From the IMG/VR virus record IMGVR_UViG_3300036046_000036, positions 1 to 22,094 of that record: DNA of 22,094 bases; one strand, written 5' to 3'. A program made the position numbers and the translations under genes. Positions 12,293 through 21,935 of the stretch are shown here, piece by piece (the first letter of the stretch is position 1; the number at the start of each line of letters is the position of its first letter). Source of the DNA: a virus. The notes below the pieces were generated by a model. The model saw only the letters and a program-made list of their open reading frames with translations. It searched no databases and was not told where the DNA came from.

Positions 12293-12927
12293 TCGGCGGC
12301 TTTGAAATCGGTTAATCGGTCGCGCTGCTGCTCGATCTGCTGGCACCAGGTGCCGACGTCGATGGCGTGCTGGAGGAGGTCGAGCTGGGTGACACCGCTA
12401 TCGGCCAGTTCGTCTGCCCATAGCCCGGAACCAGCGGTCCCGGCTTGGTCGGCTTGCTGCCCAGGGCTGGCGGTATCGGTACCGGCTGGCTCGGCTCGCA
12501 GGCCGAAGGCGGCGTTCCAGTCGCGCACGAAGCCAGCGGTAAAGACAGTGCGAGGGATAGGCACAGGCTCAGCGCTTGGCGCAGGCCGGTAGACTGTCGT
12601 GACATGGGTAGCTCTCCGTTGCAGTTGCAGGCGCAGCTGCTCGATCTGCACCCGGTGATCAATGACGGCCTGGGCCAGCTGGTCAGCCTGCTCGACCTGG
12701 ACGCGGTAGCGGCTGAATGCACGCTGGCTGCTCTCAGCCTGGTGTAGCGCGGCATCGCGAGCAGCCGTGGCCAGCTCGGCCTGGCCGAGGGCGGTGGCAT
12801 GGGCCGCCCCATAGCGCCAGCCGAGGAAGCCAGTGACGACGGCCAGGCACAGGGCGGCAAAGCAAAGCCAGCCGACCAGCTTGGCGACCGTGCTGCGGTA
12901 GGTAATCAGGGGGGCGGCCGGAATCAT
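12289..12927 (-). CDS. Rz-like inner-membrane spanin
   Basis: The 212-aa product has an N-terminal transmembrane helix (residues about 15-37, LVGWLCFAALCLAVVTGFLG) followed by a long periplasmic helix (AELATAARDAALHQAESSQR, VEQADQLAQAVIDHRVQIEQ), the layout of an i-spanin. It directly follows the endolysin (ATGA overlap) and contains an Rz1-like lipoprotein gene in another frame, which secures the call. With Rz1 it would span the periplasm and fuse inner and outer membranes in the last step of lysis. The C-terminal half (after about residue 115) is longer than in lambda Rz and codes Pro/Gly-rich sequence, partly because it shares DNA with Rz1. Confidence 0.88.
   Translation of the reverse strand: MIPAAPLITYRSTVAKLVGWLCFAALCLAVVTGFLGWRYGAAHATALGQAELATAARDAALHQAESSQRAFSRYRVQVEQADQLAQAVIDHRVQIEQLRLQLQRRATHVTTVYRPAPSAEPVPIPRTVFTAGFVRDWNAAFGLRAEPAGTDTASPGQQADQAGTAGSGLWADELADSGVTQLDLLQHAIDVGTWCQQIEQQRDRLTDFKAAE
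12312..12605 (-). CDS. Rz1-like outer-membrane lipoprotein spanin, nested in Rz
   Basis: This 97-aa gene lies wholly inside the Rz gene in a different frame. The start is ATG 12605, with GGAG about 8 nt upstream. It encodes a lipoprotein signal (RQALSLCLSLALSLPLASC) with lipobox L-A-S-C and lipidation at Cys27. The mature part begins with a Pro-rich stretch (PPSACEPSQPVPIPPALG), the mark of Rz1 o-spanins, and ends in a Ser/Thr-rich tail. It would sit in the outer membrane and bind the Rz periplasmic helix. The long Ser-rich C-terminus is constrained by the overlapping Rz frame and may be dispensable. Confidence 0.87.
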   Translation of the reverse strand: MSRQSTGLRQALSLCLSLALSLPLASCATGTPPSACEPSQPVPIPPALGSKPTKPGPLVPGYGQTNWPIAVSPSSTSSSTPSTSAPGASRSSSSATD

Positions 12928-13601
12928 GCGCAGACCCCTGCACCAAAACCGGCCGCGATATAGCGCGGCTCATGCCGCTTGAGGATGCGTTGCGGATATC
13001 CGCGGTTCTCGGTCCAGGCCGCCCTGGAGCGGCCAGCGTTGACGGCCTCAACCGAGCCGAACCACACCAGCGGGTCGGCGCCCTTCGCCGATGCCAAGCG
13101 CTTGTCGCGGATCACCCAGCCCAGGCCGCCGTTGTAGGCAGACAGCGCAAAGGCCCATTGCTCGCAGGGCGTGCGTCCCTTCACCCGCTGCAGCAGCCAA
13201 CGGTCGTACACCACCAAGGCGCGGATATCCCAAGCGGGCTGCATCACGGCCCAGGTGCCTGGGCGGGCTTTGAGCGAGGGGTCGACCGTGGCAATCCAGT
13301 CTGCGGTGGCGGGCATGAATTGCGCCATGCCACGCGCCCCGACCGGGCTGAGCGCATTACTGCGCCAGCCGCTCTCCTGGTGCAGCTGCGCGGCCATGGT
13401 GGCGATGGGCGGATTCATGCCCATCAAGGCGCGTGCCTCGCGCACCAGGGCGCGCTTGTGCTGGTAAGCACCCGCAGGCAGATCGGCCGCTTTGACGCTG
13501 AGTGCCAGGCCCAGCAGCACGCCGATCACCAGCGCGGCGCGCAGCATGACCACCAGGAACGGCCGGTACATGGCGAAAAGGATTTTGAGGATAGAGGACA
13601 C
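12924..13601 (-). CDS. Endolysin: SLT-type lytic transglycosylase
   Basis: The 225-aa protein carries a soluble-lytic-transglycosylase domain. The catalytic Glu is in AAQLHQESGWRSNALSP (E76), followed by the typical GARGMAQFMPATADW and later ALSAYNGGLGWV. It would cleave the MurNAc-GlcNAc bond of peptidoglycan. Residues about 12-38 are strongly hydrophobic and end at SVKAAD, a signal peptide or signal-arrest-release anchor, so export may not need a holin hole. I choose GTG 13601 because GGGG lies about 8 nt upstream and it starts 3 nt after the holin stop; the ATG at 13571 lacks a ribosome site. Confidence 0.92.
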   Translation of the reverse strand: MSSILKILFAMYRPFLVVMLRAALVIGVLLGLALSVKAADLPAGAYQHKRALVREARALMGMNPPIATMAAQLHQESGWRSNALSPVGARGMAQFMPATADWIATVDPSLKARPGTWAVMQPAWDIRALVVYDRWLLQRVKGRTPCEQWAFALSAYNGGLGWVIRDKRLASAKGADPLVWFGSVEAVNAGRSRAAWTENRGYPQRILKRHEPRYIAAGFGAGVCA

Positions 13602-13603
13602 GG

Positions 13604-13975
13604 CTACATCCCCAGGCTGACGCCAAGGACGCACATACCGACGATCAGCGCGCGCCGTAGCTGCGCCACAGCGAACAGCATCTCGGCACCCGCGATCACC
13701 GGAAAGTCCACCTGGATGTCCGAGCCGACATTGTCGGGCTGCCAGTCGGCATGGCCGTCCTGCAGGAAGCTGTCAGGGCGGGCATAGGGGAACAGCACGC
13801 AGTCGATCACATAGGCCACGCAGGCGGCCAGCATGACCAGGGTGATCTTGTAGAACGCGATATGCAGCGGGTTCGGCGCGGTAGTTACCGTGGCCGGGGC
13901 AAGCATGTGCAGGGTAAACAGCAGGCCGGCCGTGGTGAACAGCCAAAGCATGCGCCAGACGACATTGCGGGTCAT
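13604..13975 (-). CDS. Putative holin with three membrane segments
   Basis: Start at ATG 13975 with GGGAGG 6 nt upstream gives 123 aa. Three hydrophobic helices are visible: residues about 8-27 (RMLWLFTTAGLLFTLHML), 43-62 (KITLVMLAACVAYVIDCVLF) and 108-123 (RALIVGMCVLGVSLGM), with a polar loop between the second and third. Size, topology and position just before the endolysin match the putative holins of BcepMu-like phages (Phage_holin_8 type). It would form the timed lesion in the inner membrane. Its ATG overlaps the stop of the Cys-rich gene as ATGA. Confidence 0.82.
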   Translation of the reverse strand: MTRNVVWRMLWLFTTAGLLFTLHMLAPATVTTAPNPLHIAFYKITLVMLAACVAYVIDCVLFPYARPDSFLQDGHADWQPDNVGSDIQVDFPVIAGAEMLFAVAQLRRALIVGMCVLGVSLGM

Positions 13976-14169
13976 TTCGCACCTCCCAGGGGGCGTGGTT
14001 GGAATCGGGAGGGAACAAGCCCGCAAGGGCGTCGGGCCGAAAAATACCGGCCGTGGCTGTCAGCGATCTGGCAAAGAAAGGCGCCTTCCATACGAGCGTC
14101 GGATGGCGCTGTTGCGTTGCTGCAGAAACTGCAGCCTTTGGGATGGTCGACGGTCAGGGCTTGTTCCAT
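13972..14169 (-). CDS. Small Cys-rich protein, first gene of the late/lysis operon
   Basis: A 65-aa frame starting MEQALTVDHPKGCSFCSNAT and ending RPLGGAK. It has a CxxC pair (C13, C16) and later Cys at KGAFLC-type and RRPCGLVPS positions, which suggests metal binding. Evidence that it is real: coherent codon use, an ATGA overlap with the holin start, and a start codon 28 nt from the conserved late element, the same spacing as at gene I. Against it: no Shine-Dalgarno before the ATG, as at gene I. The function is unknown; a late regulator or lysis accessory is possible. Confidence 0.6.
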   Translation of the reverse strand: MEQALTVDHPKGCSFCSNATAPSDARMEGAFLCQIADSHGRYFSARRPCGLVPSRFQPRPLGGAK

Positions 14170-14297: not shown

Positions 14298-14309
14298 ATG
14301 AAGTTCTAA
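14298..14309 (+). other. Mini-ORF MKF-stop with a strong Shine-Dalgarno
   Basis: ATG AAG TTC TAA at 14298-14309 is preceded by GGAGG (14287-14291) at a good 6-nt spacing, and is followed 30 nt later by the 14340-14361 hairpin. It is either the leftover start of a gene cut off by recombination, or a translated minigene or leader on a short plus-strand RNA. No clear plus-strand promoter is visible. The rest of the 14170-14398 gap holds the late element, this mini-ORF and the terminator, with no other gene. Confidence 0.35.
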
Positions 14310-14339: not shown

Positions 14340-14361
14340 AAACGGCCCAAATGGGCCGTTT
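14340..14361 (-). terminator. Intrinsic terminator of the lysogeny operon (possibly bidirectional)
   Basis: A perfect 10-bp stem AAACGGCCCA / TGGGCCGTTT with an AA loop. Read leftward it ends in a run of T (six consecutive A on the plus strand at 14337-14342), a textbook rho-independent terminator. It lies 37 nt after the stop of the 243-aa gene, so it ends the repressor transcript before the lysis genes. Read rightward it is followed by TTTCGTTTT and could also work. Confidence 0.9.
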
Positions 14362-14398: not shown

Positions 14399-15130
14399 CT
14401 AAGCTGGGGCAGCGATGAACCATACTCCAGCCCTATCGTCAGCAATCAGGCTGAATCGTACCCCGTTGACGATCTCCGCTGCGGGGGCTCCATGCTGCGT
14501 TGTGGCGCGTCGTTCAAGACGACCCAACATCTCAGCGGCATCTGCGTGCGGCATCTCTACCAGAGCGGTGATCCAAACACGGCAAAGCATAAGGAAGTCA
14601 GCACCACGAAGCTCACTTTGATCTGTTCCAGAGGCCAGAATGACGGAAACATCATTTACCAGTCGATCATCTTTGCCAATTGTGGCGACTATGGCATGCC
14701 TGAAGATACCTGTCTTAGCACGTATCATGTCCCGTTCCGCACCCTCAACCATGGTATGCGACCGAATGATGTAGGCCGCATCAATCGTCTCGCGCTGCTT
14801 GTCCGGGGCTTCTATCACTGACATCAGATCTAGACGGCTCAACTCGTAGCGAGCAAAAAGCTCTTCAGCGGGGATGTTCAGACTGGCAATCGTTTTCTTC
14901 GGTGAAACATGGCTGCCAGTAGGCATAGGGGATTTAACGGCAACCGGTTCCTTGGCAGGTTTGGGTCTGCTGTCTACCCAAATGCTCAATCCCAAGCCAA
15001 AGATCGCAACAGTTATCAGGAAACCACCTCCTCCCGCGATGATATGCGTCGCACCTCTTTTCCTGGCGAATACCCATACCCCAGCCCAAATGCCAGTGAA
15101 AGCAGCCAAAACACCTAGTGCGATATACAT
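14399..15130 (-). CDS. Predicted membrane protein of unknown function (lysogeny operon, 243 aa)
   Basis: Two N-terminal transmembrane helices (residues about 2-22, IALGVLAAFTGIWAGVWVFA, and about 31-51, IAGGGGFLITVAIFGLGLSI) are followed by a Pro/Lys-rich linker and a soluble domain of about 170 residues (LNIPAEELFARYELSRLDLM, GIFRHAIVATIGKDDRLVND, GADFLMLCRVWITALVEMPH). GGAG lies 5 nt before the ATG. I do not recognise the family. It overlaps the 216-aa gene by 16 nt and is the last gene before the terminator, so it would be expressed with the repressor in the lysogen. A role in superinfection exclusion or host-membrane modification is inferred from position only. The region looks less GC-rich than the late genes. 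Confidence 0.82.
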   Translation of the reverse strand: MYIALGVLAAFTGIWAGVWVFARKRGATHIIAGGGGFLITVAIFGLGLSIWVDSRPKPAKEPVAVKSPMPTGSHVSPKKTIASLNIPAEELFARYELSRLDLMSVIEAPDKQRETIDAAYIIRSHTMVEGAERDMIRAKTGIFRHAIVATIGKDDRLVNDVSVILASGTDQSELRGADFLMLCRVWITALVEMPHADAAEMLGRLERRATTQHGAPAAEIVNGVRFSLIADDRAGVWFIAAPA

Positions 15131-15765
15131 AAACGCTCCAGCACTACTCTGACTCGTCGCGCAGCCATGACTGGCCGTGCCATATGTATGGCCGTCATCA
15201 TCAGGCTAATGCCCATGGCAATCATGGCCGCAATCCATGCGAGTTGCTCTGGTGTAGCACTGGAGCCCTTGAGCGCCTGCGGTAAGCACGCGCCGAACAA
15301 GAGCACAGCTGCGCCAATCACGGCGGTCAGCATCGGGAAAAAGATGTCGTACCAGGCGATTTTGACGGCTAATCGGCCATCCTTCTCCAGTACCAGGTTC
15401 AGGTTATTCCAGGCCCGTGTGATGTCGTCCGGTCGGATCGAACCATCGCCGAACAGCAGATACAGCTGTTCCCGCTCTTTGCGATAGGCGCGCATTCTGG
15501 TGCGCTCATAAAACTGTTCATAACGGAACTGTTCTTCCAGCGCATCGGCGTGCAGATCACGGATCGGCACCTCCATGGTTGCCAATACCCGCACCTGTTC
15601 CCGCATCTGGTCGCGGGCACCGCCAGCCAGGGAACTCAGGCCGAGCTGCTCACCACTGACATGCAGATTAATCTTTTCAATGTTGTAGTGAGTTATCGGC
15701 CCATGGTTGTTGATGTCGCGCCATGCGGCTTGGCTACCCTTTGTTGCCTTTACTTCCCTGCTCAT
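15115..15765 (-). CDS. Predicted membrane protein with coiled coil, unknown function (lysogeny operon, 216 aa)
   Basis: Start at ATG 15765, with GGGGG about 5 nt upstream, inside the 3' end of the repressor gene (32-nt overlap). The N-terminal 40 residues (REVKATKGSQAAWRDINNHG, THYNIEKINLHVSG) resemble the repressor's own tail. Residues about 55-120 are a charged helix (EQFRYEQFYERTRMRAYRKE), and two transmembrane helices follow at about 139-161 (WYDIFFPMLTAVIGAAVLLF) and 175-195 (LAWIAAMIAMGISLMMTAIH), with a short basic C-terminus. No known family is recognised. The operon position with the repressor suggests a lysogenic-conversion or exclusion protein acting with the next membrane protein. 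Confidence 0.82.
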   Translation of the reverse strand: MSREVKATKGSQAAWRDINNHGPITHYNIEKINLHVSGEQLGLSSLAGGARDQMREQVRVLATMEVPIRDLHADALEEQFRYEQFYERTRMRAYRKEREQLYLLFGDGSIRPDDITRAWNNLNLVLEKDGRLAVKIAWYDIFFPMLTAVIGAAVLLFGACLPQALKGSSATPEQLAWIAAMIAMGISLMMTAIHMARPVMAARRVRVVLERLCISH

Positions 15766-16180
15766 CTTTCCCCCTGGTTTCAATATTGAAGACACCGCCC
15801 CAGGCGGCTTGTGCACCGCTCTTCGCCTTTACGACTTGTTTTGTTGATCCTGATGGCTGGGTAGTGTTTTCACCACCCAACATCATGAATGCCAGCATCC
15901 GCTTCTTGGTGGCCGCGTCGAGTGCGCGGTAGCCGTCCAATAGCACCTGTTCATCTGCAGATAGCAGCTCCGCGCTGCCCACTCCTGAGCCAGTTAACAC
16001 CCAGGCCGGGTCCACCTTAAATATCTCTTTCAAGGCGAGCAAAGACCCTCCGTCTGGAAGAGCCTCATCACTCTCCCAGCGTGTAATCGTCTTGCGATTC
16101 ACCCCAAGCAATTCTGCGAATTCACCTACTCCGCGCGTGCCGCGAGTGTGGCGAATACGTTGCCCAACCGTTTGGGACAT
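15734..16180 (-). CDS. Lysogeny repressor, XRE-type helix-turn-helix
   Basis: Start at ATG 16180 (AGGGG about 5 nt upstream) gives 148 aa. A longer frame to 16225 would place the operator palindrome inside the gene and is rejected. Residues about 5-60 are a lambda-repressor-like domain (GQRIRHTRGTRGVGEFAELL, GVNRKTITRWESDEALPDGG), then ALKEIFKVDPAWVLTGSG, the typical close of Cro/CI HTH domains. The C-terminal half is short and lacks an S24 peptidase Ser-Lys pair, so SOS-triggered self-cleavage is unlikely. It sits beside the palindromic operator and divergent to the early operon, so it most likely represses early transcription and may regulate itself. Confidence 0.9.
   Translation of the reverse strand: MSQTVGQRIRHTRGTRGVGEFAELLGVNRKTITRWESDEALPDGGSLLALKEIFKVDPAWVLTGSGVGSAELLSADEQVLLDGYRALDAATKKRMLAFMMLGGENTTQPSGSTKQVVKAKSGAQAAWGGVFNIETRGKDEQGSKGNKG
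16172..16179. promoter_or_regulatory. Extra repressor half-site overlapping the repressor start
   Basis: TTGGGACA here repeats the arm of the 16195-16216 palindrome in the same orientation and covers the repressor start codon. Together with CCCAA at 16163-16167 it forms a second, outward-facing dyad CCCAA-CCGT-TTGGG. It may be a weak secondary operator for autoregulation. Confidence 0.45.
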
Positions 16181-16189
16181 AAAAACCCC

Positions 16190-16218
16190 TTTACATTGGG
16201 ACATTTGTGTCCCAATAT
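16190..16218 (+). promoter_or_regulatory. Possible rightward early promoter
   Basis: TTTACA (16190-16195; 5 of 6 to the -35 consensus) is followed after 17 bp by CAATAT (16213-16218; a weak -10). The operator palindrome fills the spacer, which would make repression direct. This is a weak promoter match, and the resulting leader before the first early gene would be about 160 nt. I see no better early promoter nearer to 16386. Confidence 0.35.
16195..16216. promoter_or_regulatory. Repressor operator, 22-bp palindrome
   Basis: ATTGGGACA-TTTG-TGTCCCAAT: perfect 9-bp arms around a 4-bp centre, located 15 bp upstream of the repressor start codon. The size fits a dimeric XRE-family repressor. The same half-site recurs at 16172-16179. 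Confidence 0.75.
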
Positions 16219-16385: not shown

Positions 16386-16619
16386 ATGAAACACCCACAG
16401 GAACTGCCCGTTATCCCATATCCCCAAACCCCGAAAACCGCGCATGCCTGGTTCTTCAGCCACGGTATCTGCATCAGCGACTGGTGTCGGGCACACCAAT
16501 TGGAACGTATGGCGGTAGTGGATCTGCTGCGCGGCAAGCGCAAGGGTTGCCGTGGCAATGCTCACCGCGCTGCCGTGGCACTGGGCCTGAAGGCCGCCCC
16601 TGAAAAACTGGCCGCATAA
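16386..16619 (+). CDS. BcepMu gp16-family DNA-binding protein
   Basis: The 77-aa product has a signature of the phage-associated BcepMu gp16 family: 'FFSHGICISDWCRAHQLERM' followed by VVDLLRGKRKGCRGNAHRAA and VALGLKAAP, a helix-turn-helix with a basic 'GRRKG.RG.AH.AAVALGLK'-type end. It is the first early gene and is divergent from the repressor, the place of Ner/Cro-type regulators, so it may turn down the repressor or early promoter. The Shine-Dalgarno before the ATG is weak. A longer overlapping plus-strand frame from 16148 crosses the operator region and is not credible. Confidence 0.85.
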   Translation: MKHPQELPVIPYPQTPKTAHAWFFSHGICISDWCRAHQLERMAVVDLLRGKRKGCRGNAHRAAVALGLKAAPEKLAA

Positions 16620-16924: not shown

Positions 16925-17032
16925 GTCGGTGCTCCTGTTTTCGATGGGTGCATTGTCATCACGGCCACGTCGGCCCGATAGGCCGAAAGCGGATTTTTGA
17001 TTGGAAGCGGTAAGGAAAAGGGACTTCCAGAG

Positions 17033-17503
17033 ATGAAGACAAATTGGAAAACAGTGCAGCCGAACAGCTTGCTGCATGCCCTGCGCCTGTCGAAAGACTT
17101 CGCCCGCGAGCGGCACAACCTCTCGGTTGAACGCATTGCGGACAGGATGGGTATCGGCGCAGACCTGCTCTACAAGTGGCTGGCAAATGGCCGCCTTCCG
17201 GCCATCCTCATCCCCAACTACGAGACGGTGTGCGGCTGCCACTTTGTCAGCCAATGGCTGGCCATGTCGGCCGGAAAGCTGGTGATCGACATCCCGGCTG
17301 GCCGCAATGCCGGCGCCCGCGATGTGCATCGCCTGCAGGGCCTGCTGAACGACGCAGCCGGCCAGATCATCAAGTTTGCCGAAGGCGCGAGCGATGCCGC
17401 CACGACCCTGGCCGCCATCCTGGCGGGCATGGCCGGCCTGGCCTGGCACAAAACCAACATCGAAAAGCATGTCCAGCCCGAGCTGGCTTTTACGGAGGAA
17501 TGA
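17033..17503 (+). CDS. Phage CII-like regulatory protein (Phage_CP76 type)
   Basis: ATG 17033 gives 156 aa; a TTG at 16997 is possible but adds an unlikely tail. The N-terminal half has a helix-turn-helix (LSVERIADRMGIGADLLYKW, then LANGRLPAILIPNYETVCGC) followed by HFVSQWLAMSAGKLVIDIPA, the typical core of the phage regulatory protein CII (CP76) family. The C-terminal half is helical (RLQGLLNDAAGQIIKFAEGA, AAILAGMAGLAWHKTNIEKH). It is likely a transcription regulator of the lysis-lysogeny choice or early genes. It ends with an ATGA overlap at the next gene, and that gene's GGAGG lies inside its last codons. Confidence 0.82.
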   Translation: MKTNWKTVQPNSLLHALRLSKDFARERHNLSVERIADRMGIGADLLYKWLANGRLPAILIPNYETVCGCHFVSQWLAMSAGKLVIDIPAGRNAGARDVHRLQGLLNDAAGQIIKFAEGASDAATTLAAILAGMAGLAWHKTNIEKHVQPELAFTEE

Positions 17504-18007: not shown

Positions 18008-18955
18008 ATGGCTCGTAAACCGCTTCCACCCATAGAGCACATTGCCCCCACCGACGCTGGCATCAGCCTGCCTGAAATGGCCGCCCAGGATGTTCGCGTC
18101 CGTCAAGCCATCAGCGCACAGGATGCCACCATCCGCGCAGTAGCCACCCAGCTCGGCTACCAGCTGCCGGCCGACTGCACCGACCCTGACCTGATTCAGC
18201 GTGACATTGCAGCAAATATGCGTCGCAGTGTGGAAGCCTGCCTGGAAGTGGGGCGCGGCCTGCGGGTGCTAAAAGAAGCCTGTGAGCACGGGCAGTTCAT
18301 GACGCGGTTGGAGGTTCTGGGAATAGAAACCCGCGTGGCGCAACGGTTCATGGCATCTGCAGTCAAGTTTGCAAATGCGGCGTCAACGCCGCTTTTGAAG
18401 GCTGTCGGCAACCAGACCAAGCTGTTCGAGATGCTGGTCCTCGACGATGAGCAGATCGAAGAACTGGAGCTGCACGGCCAGACCGGCGAACTGAAGCTCG
18501 ACGATATTGCCACCATGAGCGTGAAGGAGCTGCGCGCCGCCCTACGCACCGAGCGCCAAGAGGCCCAGGAAAAGCAAACCAACATCGAACGCCTGATTGA
18601 GCAGAAGCAGCTTCGCGCCGATCAACTGGCCGACGAGCTGGACCAGATCAAGGCAGGCGGTAAGGACGCGGAAGCAGCACTGCAGCTGGCCACCGAGGCC
18701 GACTTCCAGAACCGCCTGTTTGCCGCGCAGCAGCAGGTGCTGGCCGCCCATCGCGAGCTGGCCCAGGTGGTGGCCGACTGCCTGGTCGAGCCGACTGAAA
18801 GCCGCCAGACCCTTGCCGAAACCACCGTGCAGTGGGTGTTCCAGAACATCAACGAGATCGCCCTCACGCACGAAATCCTCGTCGATTTCAAGGCCATCGT
18901 CGTCCCTGAATGGATGCGCACGCTGTACGGCCTCGACCAGCCGGTGGAGGCATAA
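18008..18955 (+). CDS. DUF3102-like coiled-coil protein, early operon (315 aa)
   Basis: The N-terminal half (about residues 70-125) has RRSVEACLEVGRGLRVLKEA, CEHGQFMTRLEVLGIETRVA, QRFMASAVKFANA, a pattern like DUF3102 and related phage proteins ('G..L...K....HG.F..W.......R....ym'). Residues about 180-260 are a long coiled coil (ELRAALRTERQEAQEKQTNI, EQKQLRADQLADELDQIKAG). The gene comes directly before transposase A, so a role in replication or transposition, perhaps as a DNA-binding organiser, is plausible. AGAGG lies 5 nt before the ATG. Confidence 0.8.
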   Translation: MARKPLPPIEHIAPTDAGISLPEMAAQDVRVRQAISAQDATIRAVATQLGYQLPADCTDPDLIQRDIAANMRRSVEACLEVGRGLRVLKEACEHGQFMTRLEVLGIETRVAQRFMASAVKFANAASTPLLKAVGNQTKLFEMLVLDDEQIEELELHGQTGELKLDDIATMSVKELRAALRTERQEAQEKQTNIERLIEQKQLRADQLADELDQIKAGGKDAEAALQLATEADFQNRLFAAQQQVLAAHRELAQVVADCLVEPTESRQTLAETTVQWVFQNINEIALTHEILVDFKAIVVPEWMRTLYGLDQPVEA

Positions 18956-18957
18956 CC

Positions 18958-20742
18958 ATGAGCGCGGAATTGGCTGAACTGGACACCCTGCGCGAGCTGG
19001 CCACCAAGCTGGCCACGGCCGGGCATGGTCAGAAGGGCGAGCTGGTGAGCCGTGTGGCCAAGCTGCTCAACTACTCGGTGCAGGAGGTCTATCGCCGCCT
19101 GGAGCGCGCCGGCTTTGATAGCGGCCGCAAACCCCGAGCGGACAAGGGCAGGACAAAAGTCTCTGAGACCTTGGCACGCAAGGTGGGCGGCATGGTGCAT
19201 GTGGCCACTCGCGCCAACAGCAAGAAGACGCTCGCGATCAAGACGGCCCTGACCATCCTGACCGAGGACGGCCGGCATGGCGAGGCCAATCCTGAGACGG
19301 GCGAGATCATGCAGATCGAAGTCAGCGCCAGCACGGTATCGCGCGCCATGCGTCGCTATCGCTGCCACCCGGAACAGCTGAGCGTTCCCACGCCCCATGT
19401 CAGTCAGCGCAGCCTGCACCCCAACCATGTGTGGCAGATCGACGCCTCGGTCTGCGTGCTGTTCTACCTGCCCAAGGGCGGCCTCTCGGTGATGGAGGAG
19501 AAAGAGTTCTACAAGAACAAGCCGCAGAACATCAAGAAGGTCGAAAACGAGCGCGTGATCCGCTACGTGATCACCGATCACTACAGCGGCTGGATTTTCC
19601 TGTGGTACGTGCATGGCAGCGAGGACACCGCCAACCTGATCGAGGCTTTCCTGGCCGCTATCCAGTACCGGGGCGCCACCGACCCGATGCACGGTGTGCC
19701 GCTGATTCTGATGATGGACAAGGGCTCGGCCAACGTCAGCGGCCTGTTCCTGAACCTGCTGAAGAACCTGCATGTGGAAGCCATCGTGCACGGTGTCGGC
19801 AACCCGCGCGCCAAAGGCCAGGTCGAGAACGGGCAGAACCTGGTTGAAACACAGTTCGAAGGCCGCCTGCCATTCCTGCGCATCAACAGCCTGGCCGAAC
19901 TGCAGGCCGCCGCAGACCGCTGGCGTATTGCCTACAACGCGACCGCCAAGCACTCGCGCTACGGCAAGCCGCGCAATGCCATGTGGCTCACCATCCGGGA
20001 AGACCAACTGCGCATTGCGCCGCCGCTGGCCCTGCTGCGCGAACTGGTCAACACCCAGCCGATGCCCGCCACCGTGCGCGGCAATCTGACCATCAGCCAC
20101 AGCACGAAGGGCTACGGCAGCCAGGATTACGACCTGCGCCACATCCCTGGCATTCATCCCAAGGAGAAGGTCCAGGTCATCGTCAACGCGTACCGCGCGC
20201 CGGCCATCGACGTCGTGATCACTGACCTGGGCGGTGTTGAGGCGACATACACGGTGGAGCCGATGCAGGTGGATCTGGCTGGCTTTCCCGCGACGGCTCC
20301 GATCATCGGTGCCAGCTACGCCGCCCAGGCCAAGGACGCCACCGAGCGCAGCCGTGAGGCCATCCGCCAGTCGGCTTACGGCGTATCGACAGAGCGGGAG
20401 GTGGACGCCCAGCGCAAGCAGCGCGTGACCGCCTACGAGGGCCAGATCAATGCCATGGCCGACGTCGACAGCGTCTCAGTACCCACCTATCTGCCCAAGC
20501 GGGGCAGAGACCTGGCCGTCGAATCCCGCGAACGCAATATCCAGCCGCTCAACCACATTGAGGCCGCCAAGCGCATCCGGCAGGCCATGGGCGAGGCTTG
20601 GACCAAGGGGCATTTTCAGTGGCTTACGCAGCGTCATCCAGACGGCGTGGCGGAAGACCAGATCGAGGCGATTGTCGCCGAACTCAGCGGGCCGAAAGCC
20701 CAGCACAAAACGCCGCTGCGCTTAGCGGTAGGAGGTGAGTGA
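18958..20742 (+). CDS. Transposase A, Mu A-like DDE recombinase
   Basis: Start at ATG 18958 (GGAGG about 7 nt upstream) gives 594 aa. An N-terminal helix-turn-helix region (GQKGELVSRVAKLLNYSVQE, VYRRLERAGF) and a linker lead into the rve-type core. Catalytic residues are D162 (HVWQIDASV), D254 (LILMMDKGSAN) and E290 (KGQVENGQN), with exactly 35 residues between D254 and E290. A Mu-type beta-barrel follows (HPKEKVQVIVNAYRAPAIDV), then a helical C-terminus where Mu A binds its ATPase partner. It cuts phage ends and joins them to target DNA in integration and replicative transposition. Intact and adjacent to the B gene. Confidence 0.96.
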   Translation: MSAELAELDTLRELATKLATAGHGQKGELVSRVAKLLNYSVQEVYRRLERAGFDSGRKPRADKGRTKVSETLARKVGGMVHVATRANSKKTLAIKTALTILTEDGRHGEANPETGEIMQIEVSASTVSRAMRRYRCHPEQLSVPTPHVSQRSLHPNHVWQIDASVCVLFYLPKGGLSVMEEKEFYKNKPQNIKKVENERVIRYVITDHYSGWIFLWYVHGSEDTANLIEAFLAAIQYRGATDPMHGVPLILMMDKGSANVSGLFLNLLKNLHVEAIVHGVGNPRAKGQVENGQNLVETQFEGRLPFLRINSLAELQAAADRWRIAYNATAKHSRYGKPRNAMWLTIREDQLRIAPPLALLRELVNTQPMPATVRGNLTISHSTKGYGSQDYDLRHIPGIHPKEKVQVIVNAYRAPAIDVVITDLGGVEATYTVEPMQVDLAGFPATAPIIGASYAAQAKDATERSREAIRQSAYGVSTEREVDAQRKQRVTAYEGQINAMADVDSVSVPTYLPKRGRDLAVESRERNIQPLNHIEAAKRIRQAMGEAWTKGHFQWLTQRHPDGVAEDQIEAIVAELSGPKAQHKTPLRLAVGGE

Positions 20743-21935
20743 TGTTGAAGCTGAAACACACCCTGGAAGACCTGGGCAAGAAGCAGACCGAGCTGGCCGC
20801 GCACCTGTCGCTCAGCAAGGCGGCTGTGGCCCAGCTGGTCAACCACGGCCAGTGGCCCAAGACCATCCAGCAAACCGACCTGAAAGACCGCATCGCCAGC
20901 TGGCTGGTGGCGGCAGGTGCAGCACAAGACAGCGTGCAAACCGCATTTGAAGAGTGGGTGCAGCCAGGCGGCAACCTGGCCACACCCGATGCCCAGTCCC
21001 AAGAGTCCAACCAAGAAACGGAGCACGAAAACATGTTACTACGCTGCCAGCCTCTCCTTCCTGAAGCACGCCGCCACTTTGAGCTTTTTTCCGACCCATT
21101 CCTGGAAGACCTGAAGGGGCCCGAAGACCTGTGGACCTCGCCCGAGCTGCGCTATGTCCGTGAGGCCATGATGCAGACGGCAACTGGCGGCGGCATGCTG
21201 GCGATTGTGAGTGAATCTGGTGCAGGCAAGACCACGCTGCTGATCGACCTCGAAGACCGCATCTGTCGTGAGAAAAAGCCCGTCATCCTCATCAAGCCCT
21301 ACATGCTGAGCGCAGAGGAAACCGACCAGAAGGGCAAGACGCTCAAATCGACCCATATTGCCGAGGCCATCATGGCCGCCGTGGCACCTAACGAGAAGCC
21401 GAAGAGCAGCCCCGAAGCGCGCTTCCAGCAGCTGCACCGCGTACTAAAGGACAGCGCAGCAGCCGGTAATCGTCACTGCGTGGTGTTCGACGAAGCGCAC
21501 AGCCTTCCCCTGGCAACTATCAAGCATCTGAAGCGCTACACCGAGCTGAAGCTGGGTTACAAGTCGCTGATCAGCATCATTCTGATGGGCCAGACCGAGC
21601 TGCAGGTGAAGCTCAGCGAGCGCGATTCCAAGGTGCGGGAAGTAGTCCAGCGGTGCGAGGTAGTTCAGCTACTGCCCCTGAGCGCAGCCGAGCTACAGCA
21701 GTACCTGCATTTCAAATTCAAGCGCCTGGGCAAGCAGCTGGGCGAGATCATGAACGAGGAAGCGCTGGATGCACTGCGCGCTAGGCTGACCATTTCGACG
21801 CGCAACAGTGCGCAACAGGATCAAGTCTCGCTGCTTTATCCGCTCGCCGTTGGCAATGTCGTTAAAGCTGCCATGAACATGGCTGCAGAGCTGGGCGTGC
21901 CTGTCATCACCGCCGACCTGATCAAGGGGGTCTGA
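20742..21935 (+). CDS. Transposition protein B, AAA+ target-DNA ATPase
   Basis: ATG 20742 (GGAGG 6 nt upstream, overlapping the transposase stop by one base) gives 397 aa. An N-terminal helix-turn-helix (KKQTELAAHLSLSKAAVAQL, residues about 12-35) binds DNA. An AAA+ core has Walker A GAGKTT (K163) and Walker B VVFDEAHS (D250, E251), followed by an ILMGQTELQVKL segment as in ExeA/MuB-like ATPases. The C-terminal helical part includes QVSLLYPLAVGNVVKAAMNM. By analogy with Mu B it coats target DNA, activates transposase and steers it away from its own genome. Confidence 0.93.
   Translation: MLKLKHTLEDLGKKQTELAAHLSLSKAAVAQLVNHGQWPKTIQQTDLKDRIASWLVAAGAAQDSVQTAFEEWVQPGGNLATPDAQSQESNQETEHENMLLRCQPLLPEARRHFELFSDPFLEDLKGPEDLWTSPELRYVREAMMQTATGGGMLAIVSESGAGKTTLLIDLEDRICREKKPVILIKPYMLSAEETDQKGKTLKSTHIAEAIMAAVAPNEKPKSSPEARFQQLHRVLKDSAAAGNRHCVVFDEAHSLPLATIKHLKRYTELKLGYKSLISIILMGQTELQVKLSERDSKVREVVQRCEVVQLLPLSAAELQQYLHFKFKRLGKQLGEIMNEEALDALRARLTISTRNSAQQDQVSLLYPLAVGNVVKAAMNMAAELGVPVITADLIKGV

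Follow-up and report, generated by a model that had tools for sequence, protein, structure and literature searches.

A short tag shared by a lysogeny repressor and a membrane protein may serve as a switch in B3-like transposable phages

We describe a short peptide, here called the tag, that occurs both at the C-terminus of a phage lysogeny repressor and at the N-terminus of the membrane protein encoded by the next gene, and that recurs at the same position in related transposable phages. In the reading that we prefer, to which we give a rough probability of 0.48, this homotypic and possibly cross-beta tag would couple the repressor to its membrane partner, and a switch for induction or immunity would be its most likely role. 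The initial annotation of this DNA overlooked the peptide common to the repressor and the 216-aa membrane protein, and took the latter and its 243-aa neighbor for a candidate unit of superinfection exclusion or phage defense; the unit that proved robust across phages is the repressor together with its next gene.

The repressor operon of the window

The window, that is, the whole stretch of 22,094 bases analyzed here, comes from a virus record and has a GC content of 0.629. Its genes mark it as a piece of a B3/BcepMu-like transposable phage: genes for transposition of the MuA/MuB type adjoin a divergent repressor, and the MuA-type transposase (18910-20742; phrog_310, E 1.4e-99) shares 39% identity with the MuA of B3. 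A leftward operon of three genes sits between the holin and the divergent early genes, and its features, with the neighboring lysis genes, are as follows.

12924-13634: transglycosylase endolysin (profile matches)
13604-14026: holin (profile matches)
14340-14361, bidirectional by sequence: hairpin AAACGGCCC-AAAT-GGGCCGTTT, putative operon-closing terminator (hairpin scan and minus-strand T-run)
14399-15130, minus strand: optional third gene, 243 aa, two N-terminal transmembrane (TM) helices and a C-terminal domain (ORF call)
15115-15765, minus strand: tagged membrane partner, 216 aa, two TM helices (ORF call, repressor overlap)
15187-15243, minus strand: TM helix 2 of the 216-aa protein, residues 175-193 (Kyte-Doolittle scan)
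15289-15345, minus strand: TM helix 1 of the 216-aa protein, residues 141-159 (Kyte-Doolittle scan)
15706-15753, minus strand: N-terminal tag of the 216-aa protein, VKATKGSQAAWRDINN, residues 5-20 (local alignment with the repressor C-terminus)
15734-16180, minus strand: HTH repressor with C-terminal tag, 148 aa from ATG (HTH_3 and PHROG matches, position)
15785-15832, minus strand: C-terminal tag of the repressor, VKAKSGAQAAWGGVFN, residues 117-132 (local alignment with the 216-aa N-terminus)
16172-16179, plus strand: third exact operator half-site, TTGGGACA (sequence match)
16196-16215, upstream of the repressor: probable operator, perfect palindrome TTGGGACA-TTTG-TGTCCCAA (1 found, 0.04 expected)

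The three genes probably form one operon because they overlap, by 32 nt between the repressor and 216-aa genes and by 16 nt between the 216-aa and 243-aa genes. The hairpin behind them was listed on the plus strand by the scan, and on the minus strand a T-rich stretch comes after it; therefore, it can also terminate the leftward operon. Overlaps and hairpin together support the repressor-linked leftward transcript that had been proposed earlier. Promoter-like sites in the operon region were not above chance (2 found, 1.6 expected), and an Rfam search of the window gave no match. The palindrome and the additional half-site likely constitute an operator. On the other side, the divergent early genes on the plus strand encode a small HTH protein (phrog_925, 16386-16619) and a CII-like regulator (phrog_101, 16997-17503), the expected counterpart of the window repressor. 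The low GC content and accessory position noted in the initial annotation were also confirmed, with values of 0.531 for the 243-aa gene, 0.559 for the 216-aa gene and 0.548 for the repressor, the lowest of the window, and with the minimum among 732-nt segments (0.515) starting at 14301. RNA-seq of the lysogen of the relative Fc02, as described in its published account, revealed a transcript of approximately 1,900 nt that includes the repressor together with the accessory gene following it (PMC9936078); since this parallel exists, the operon genes of the window are probably expressed in the lysogen, in line with what had been suggested.

The window repressor matches HTH_3 of Pfam (E 9.2e-7), a DicA-like subfamily (under the cutoff of that subfamily) and repressor PHROGs (down to E 6.6e-11); its gene adjoins the divergent early genes and MuA, and Pfam found no C-terminal Peptidase_S24 domain in it. 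The Kyte-Doolittle scan agreed with the topology first described for the two following products, in that a charged domain precedes the two hydrophobic helices of the 216-aa protein, and the helices of the 243-aa protein, at residues 3 and 30, are followed by its domain. Both had been called unrecognized and remained so in Pfam, NCBIfam and PADLOC searches, where no match was significant (best PADLOC E 0.018); the 243-aa protein gave a weak PHROG match (phrog_23546, E 0.22). No relative of the 216-aa protein was found among phages, plasmids, viral contigs and genome contigs, and none of the 243-aa protein among phages or viral contigs in a direct search. For the 216-aa protein, AF2 gave an unusable model (pLDDT 48.9), and the model of the 243-aa protein (pLDDT 56.5) had no PDB match at E <= 0.001.

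The repressor end reads ...VKAKSGAQAAWGGVFNIETRGK... and the 216-aa protein starts with MSREVKATKGSQAAWRDINNHG..., and their local alignment has a score of 46, with 9 of 16 residues identical. This score was reached in 3 of 20,000 shuffles when the first 45 residues of the 216-aa protein were shuffled and compared with the last 45 of the repressor, in 24 of 5,000 shuffles of the whole protein and by none of 796 control adjacent gene pairs. Among the 87 clusters of the survey described below, the window repressor places its own partner first, and the partner likewise places its own repressor first. Adjacent, overlapping genes with a common short terminal motif are the layout of the bacterial amyloid signaling pairs of the BASS type. 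The window tag is atypical, in that it contains W, a residue that other tags avoid. Membership in the commonest, AGRD-type, class was not supported, as with the profile of this class the 216-aa protein scores only E 0.19, behind a non-gene ORF at 21653-21784 (E 0.008); by alignment, the nearest tags are those of loci L003 and L086. These points count against our preferred reading, as does the failure to find a homolog of the 216-aa protein with which tag conservation could be compared. Because no relative of the 216-aa protein was found, we examined the equivalent position in phages related to the window.

Recurrence of the tag behind phage repressors

MuA-based scans gathered loci L003-L179, in which MuA was present in 177 loci, a repressor was found in 161 and a next ORF in 155; of the 16 loci lacking a repressor, nine have over 3.5 kb of sequence upstream of MuA, and seven have less. 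The 155 loci and seven named phages (JBD67 was left out) yielded 162 pairs, which were merged by similarity into 87 clusters. With a cutoff of 38, which was picked after viewing the score list and with which thresholds of 30-50 agree, 28 of the 87 clusters are tagged, compared with 7 of 796 control adjacent pairs from the same loci (Fisher 3e-24); at least 13 further clusters below 38 that appear tagged by eye, and loci L073, L099, L079 and L028, recovered in another frame, are not included in this count. In L073, approximately 90 nt behind the repressor, a near-identical 21-residue tag (KQVNINANAAGSRAVGKIVNK / KQVNINANAAGTSATGKTVNK) lies only in an alternative frame, and therefore longest-ORF calling misses some partners.

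Across the 87 clusters, the mean score of a repressor tail was 32.3 against its own neighbor versus 22.0 against other neighbors, and the former was matched in none of 10,000 permutations (highest 25.0). Within the 28 tagged clusters, own partners scored 53.2 and swapped partners 26.5, with the own partner strictly best in 15. On the evidence of shuffles, swapped partners and the 796 control pairs, chance was rejected as the source of the match. Repressor and partner tags read, for example, NHGYINQGRHKGEVNFG / NHGYINQGTHEGDVYFG in L138, RIKSKGKKSQAGFNI / RIKSKGENSQAAFNI in L128, FHGSVGQVGGGDINN / FKGPVDQVAGGNINN in L176 and VKGSGNRTAGRDYHE / VEGSNNRVAGRDYIE in L100; in the median, a tag is 19 residues long, ends 4 residues before the repressor end and starts at partner residue 4.5. 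A comparison of composition that uses no alignment gave a Spearman correlation of 0.57 (p 8e-9) between repressor tails and partner starts in their N/G/Q/H content, and no correlation between tails and partner bodies (-0.11). At the 290 identical residues with degenerate codons in the 28 tags, the same codon is used 129 times, and 130.3 are expected from codon usage; therefore, the match is not a recent DNA copy, and duplication of this kind was rejected. The tag match is maintained at the protein level, with synonymous sites randomized.

Two separate sets were searched with partner queries that include the tag region and are therefore blind to the tag on the repressor side only. The partner body family phrog_5825 had matches in 8 of 199 Pseudomonas genomes; 8 of the 11 loci were read (L190, L191 and L199 were left out), L192, of the helical type, gave no match, and all six new readable loci (L193-L198) have an upstream repressor with a matching tag (scores 40-59). 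A partner query (A4) against viral contigs returned 34 loci, four of them near-duplicates. An upstream ORF is present in 30, and all of these except L231 (29 of 30) match at a score of at least 36; MuA is present in 26 of 33 loci tested, and in the remaining seven the contig extends less than 3 kb upstream.

The 243-aa protein behaves differently from the tagged partner. An iterated HMM placed it in a family with products of 236 aa in L003, 245 aa in L036 (N-terminal part) and 264 aa in L138; such genes were found in only these three loci and the window, each time behind a tagged pair, and most tagged repressor/partner pairs lack one. The 216- and 243-like genes thus form no regular pair, and the functional unit that the initial annotation had seen in them was not supported. 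As evidence against that unit, it had named one gene regularly occurring without the other and away from repressors: the genes do occur apart, and no partner away from a repressor was seen, with L231 a possible exception.

Among named phages, B3 carries the tag at the end of its repressor ORF18 (VTGDGNRTAGRDFHERKE) and at the start of ORF20 (VNIEVTGSNNIVAGRDFIE), a 195-aa protein with two TM helices, and Ps59 resembles B3 in having it on both proteins. B3 shares with the window the operon position, the tagged repressor with a tagged two-TM protein and a related MuA, but its tag belongs to another class (VTGDGNRTAGRDFHE / VTGSNNIVAGRDFIE), and no similarity between ORF20 and the 216-aa protein was found. 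In PM105, KP12, phiSHP3, JBD25 and Fc02, neither the repressor nor its neighbor has a tag, and tag-like repressors without a tagged neighbor (Komp_PAO1_1, L058 and L034) count against our preferred reading. With regard to partners and ALTERNATIVES, an internal TM helix is found in 18 of 28 tagged partners versus 11 of 52 neighbors scoring below 30 (Fisher 2e-4); the 10 of 28 tagged partners with no predicted TM helix are a further point against. Partner bodies vary, from zinc-ribbon-like (by eye) with two TM helices, through ORF6C-like, in some cases with a C-terminal TM helix, to helical with two TM helices, as in the window.

Six clusters whose repressors have a helical C-terminus are untagged, which also counts against our preferred reading; at least three partners of helical-type repressors (L174, L167 and L134) contain a tag-like stretch, as judged by eye. 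A second mode of pairing is apparent in L068, L174, L177 and L045, where repressors with a conserved helical C-terminus ending in ...VERILKLVVNR are followed by partners with an N-terminal helical stretch and then a tag-like KxKGNxGxINxG motif. None of the seven clusters with S24-like repressors is tagged (S24 was verified by Pfam in one, L030), and in six of the seven the next product is N-terminally hydrophobic and lipoprotein-like. More generally, untagged repressors, either of S24 type or short, regularly precede small lipoprotein-like genes, an equally constant neighbor (L101, L111, L116 and similar loci; JBD25, L180; Fc02, L002).

Tag character, known systems and fusions

In composition, the tags show an excess of N (3.5x), G (2.3x), H, Q, V and I and a shortage of L, W, Y and P. 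The RHIM-like BASS3 peptide of Frankia, which has been reported to aggregate (PMC8086366), scores 48 against the repressor tail of L159, 47 against L156, 38 against L059, 37 against L063 and 35 against L178; a score of at least 28 is reached by 9 of 87 repressor tails and by 13 of 1,658 control C-termini. A BASS3-core pattern occurs in 5 of the 87 tails, in 6 of the 87 partner starts and in none of the bodies. The tags that match this peptide are those of relatives (among them L159, L059, L063 and L178), and the window tag is not among the matches.

The resemblance to BASS1-10, the NLR/Bell pairs, extends to adjacent or overlapping genes, a common short G/N/Q-rich terminal motif and a membrane-type effector, and both systems can be found by local alignment of neighbors, with several phage tags resembling BASS3. 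Unlike in those pairs, the sensor candidate in the phage is a 148-aa HTH repressor rather than an NLR (NB-ARC/NACHT), the motif is C-terminal on the sensor candidate and N-terminal on the partner, which is the reverse order, and the window partner has no Bell, CHAT or TIR domain in Pfam, NCBIfam or PADLOC. Searches of titles and abstracts and of open-access literature found no published description of amyloid signaling motifs in phage repressors, and the main text of a deep-learning scan for such motifs mentions neither phage nor repressor (PMC12261475). S24 (LexA/CI-like) repressors take the same locus and HTH role in relatives, but they have a self-cleaving C-terminal domain where the tag stands, and their next gene is mostly lipoprotein-like.

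In some relatives, repressor and partner parts are joined in one chain. The family phrog_17822 aligns with the HTH of the B3 repressor at positions 4-73 (E 3e-8) and with the body of the L003 partner at 120-266 (E 3e-38), and the L003 partner matches, at 41.5%, the CI-like repressor of phage Gregale, which consists of an HTH (E 1.9e-6), a tag-like linker (SAVSISGGNFAGFVGTAQTGSTVHMIN) and ORF6C (E 1e-5). These are the parts of the L003 repressor and partner, but in a single polypeptide in which no membrane helix was found; L133 appears, from its C-terminus and by eye, to be a fusion of the same type. In L005 (6690-7283, minus strand) and L069 (6635-7345, minus strand), a single chain combines the repressor HTH with two C-terminal TM helices; by predicted helices, these products are membrane-anchored repressors in two different phage loci. 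As read from their sequences, the fusions support a direct link between repressor and partner and between repressor and membrane.

A proposed switch and its alternatives

We propose that the 216-aa protein would be a membrane partner of the lysogeny repressor, that both would be produced from the repressor transcript in the lysogen and that both would carry one homotypic tag, at the repressor C-terminus and at the presumably cytoplasmic N-terminus of the partner. The tags would most likely bind by beta-strand stacking, as in bacterial amyloid signaling sequences; the membrane partner, once triggered or clustered, would capture or co-assemble the repressor, and a membrane or infection signal would thereby lead to loss (or localization) of the repressor and an altered lysogeny decision. 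The tag would occupy the place of the RecA-responsive S24 peptidase domain of other repressors. The computations establish the tag match, its recurrence, co-occurrence and upkeep at the protein level, the membrane helices and the fusions in relatives; the binding, the cross-beta structure, the direction of the switch and the signal are what we infer. A wider model is possible but more tentative: temperate transposable phages might use NLR-independent amyloid signaling, in which a RHIM-like or BASS-type motif on the repressor would allow templated co-assembly with the membrane partner, a prion-like all-or-none switch between lysis and lysogeny and many orthogonal tag specificities.

The main rival, which we consider unlikely, is that the tag triggers killing, the partner being a membrane-permeabilizing, Bell-like effector that is restrained or triggered by the repressor, such that the cell would die upon repressor loss or superinfection (abortive infection or addiction). 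BASS pairs do link a sensor with a membrane-targeting effector, according to the review text (PMC7889193), the partners are small proteins with one or two TM helices, and ORF20 of B3 has a sub-threshold holin-family match (E 0.059); however, the HTH-ORF6C fusion of Gregale and the HTH-two TM fusions of L005 and L069 better suit regulation or tethering, and 10 of 28 tagged partners lack a predicted TM helix. Two features lead us to favor a regulatory switch over killing: the repressor HTH is joined in relatives with either the partner domain or TM helices, and the tag stands where an S24 induction domain would.

It is distinctly less probable that the tag, although a genuine motif for homotypic or shared interaction, is not cross-beta and serves, for instance, as a beta-strand pairing element or as a shared adaptor or protease tag that ties the two protein levels together. 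The amyloid nature of the tags is putative, the window tag is atypical and some pairs use the helical repressor C-terminus instead, but several tags match published amyloid signaling peptides (the L159 score and the excess over control C-termini given above), and the BASS3-core pattern is confined to tails and partner starts. The earlier proposal that the 216/243 pair excludes superinfecting phages, without involvement of the repressor, has become improbable: membrane proteins within a repressor operon at an accessory locus would suit it, prophage exclusion proteins are likewise small membrane proteins made in lysogens, and other beetrevirus genes near the switch do exclude phages, but in the Fc02 account this activity belongs to olg1 and gene 10 (PMC9936078). 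Exclusion would also leave the common tag unexplained, the two genes form no regular pair and Pfam, NCBIfam, PADLOC and PHROG searches gave the window proteins no significant homology to known defense or exclusion proteins. We know of no superinfection-exclusion membrane protein that shares a tag with a repressor. Finally, a duplication or recombination scar at the module boundary without protein function, or chance, is largely refuted and very improbable. The slot behind the repressor is indeed a mosaic, low-GC site and 38 of 69 nt are identical in the window, but same-codon use is at random expectation and tagged clusters far exceed the controls (28/87 vs 7/796).

Bacterial amyloid signaling has so far been known from NLR/effector gene pairs, and the published review asks whether signaling amyloids occur outside NLR pathways (PMC7889193). 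If the proposed switch is correct, motif-bearing repressors and their membrane partners, in phages as well studied as B3, would answer this question and make it accessible to tests in a tractable system. The switch would also suggest an induction route for repressors without an S24 domain, offer numerous independent tag pairs with which to examine how specific short assembly motifs are and give a function to the 'hypothetical' genes behind the repressors of many transposable phages, in which dormancy may be wired to the membrane via a common tag.
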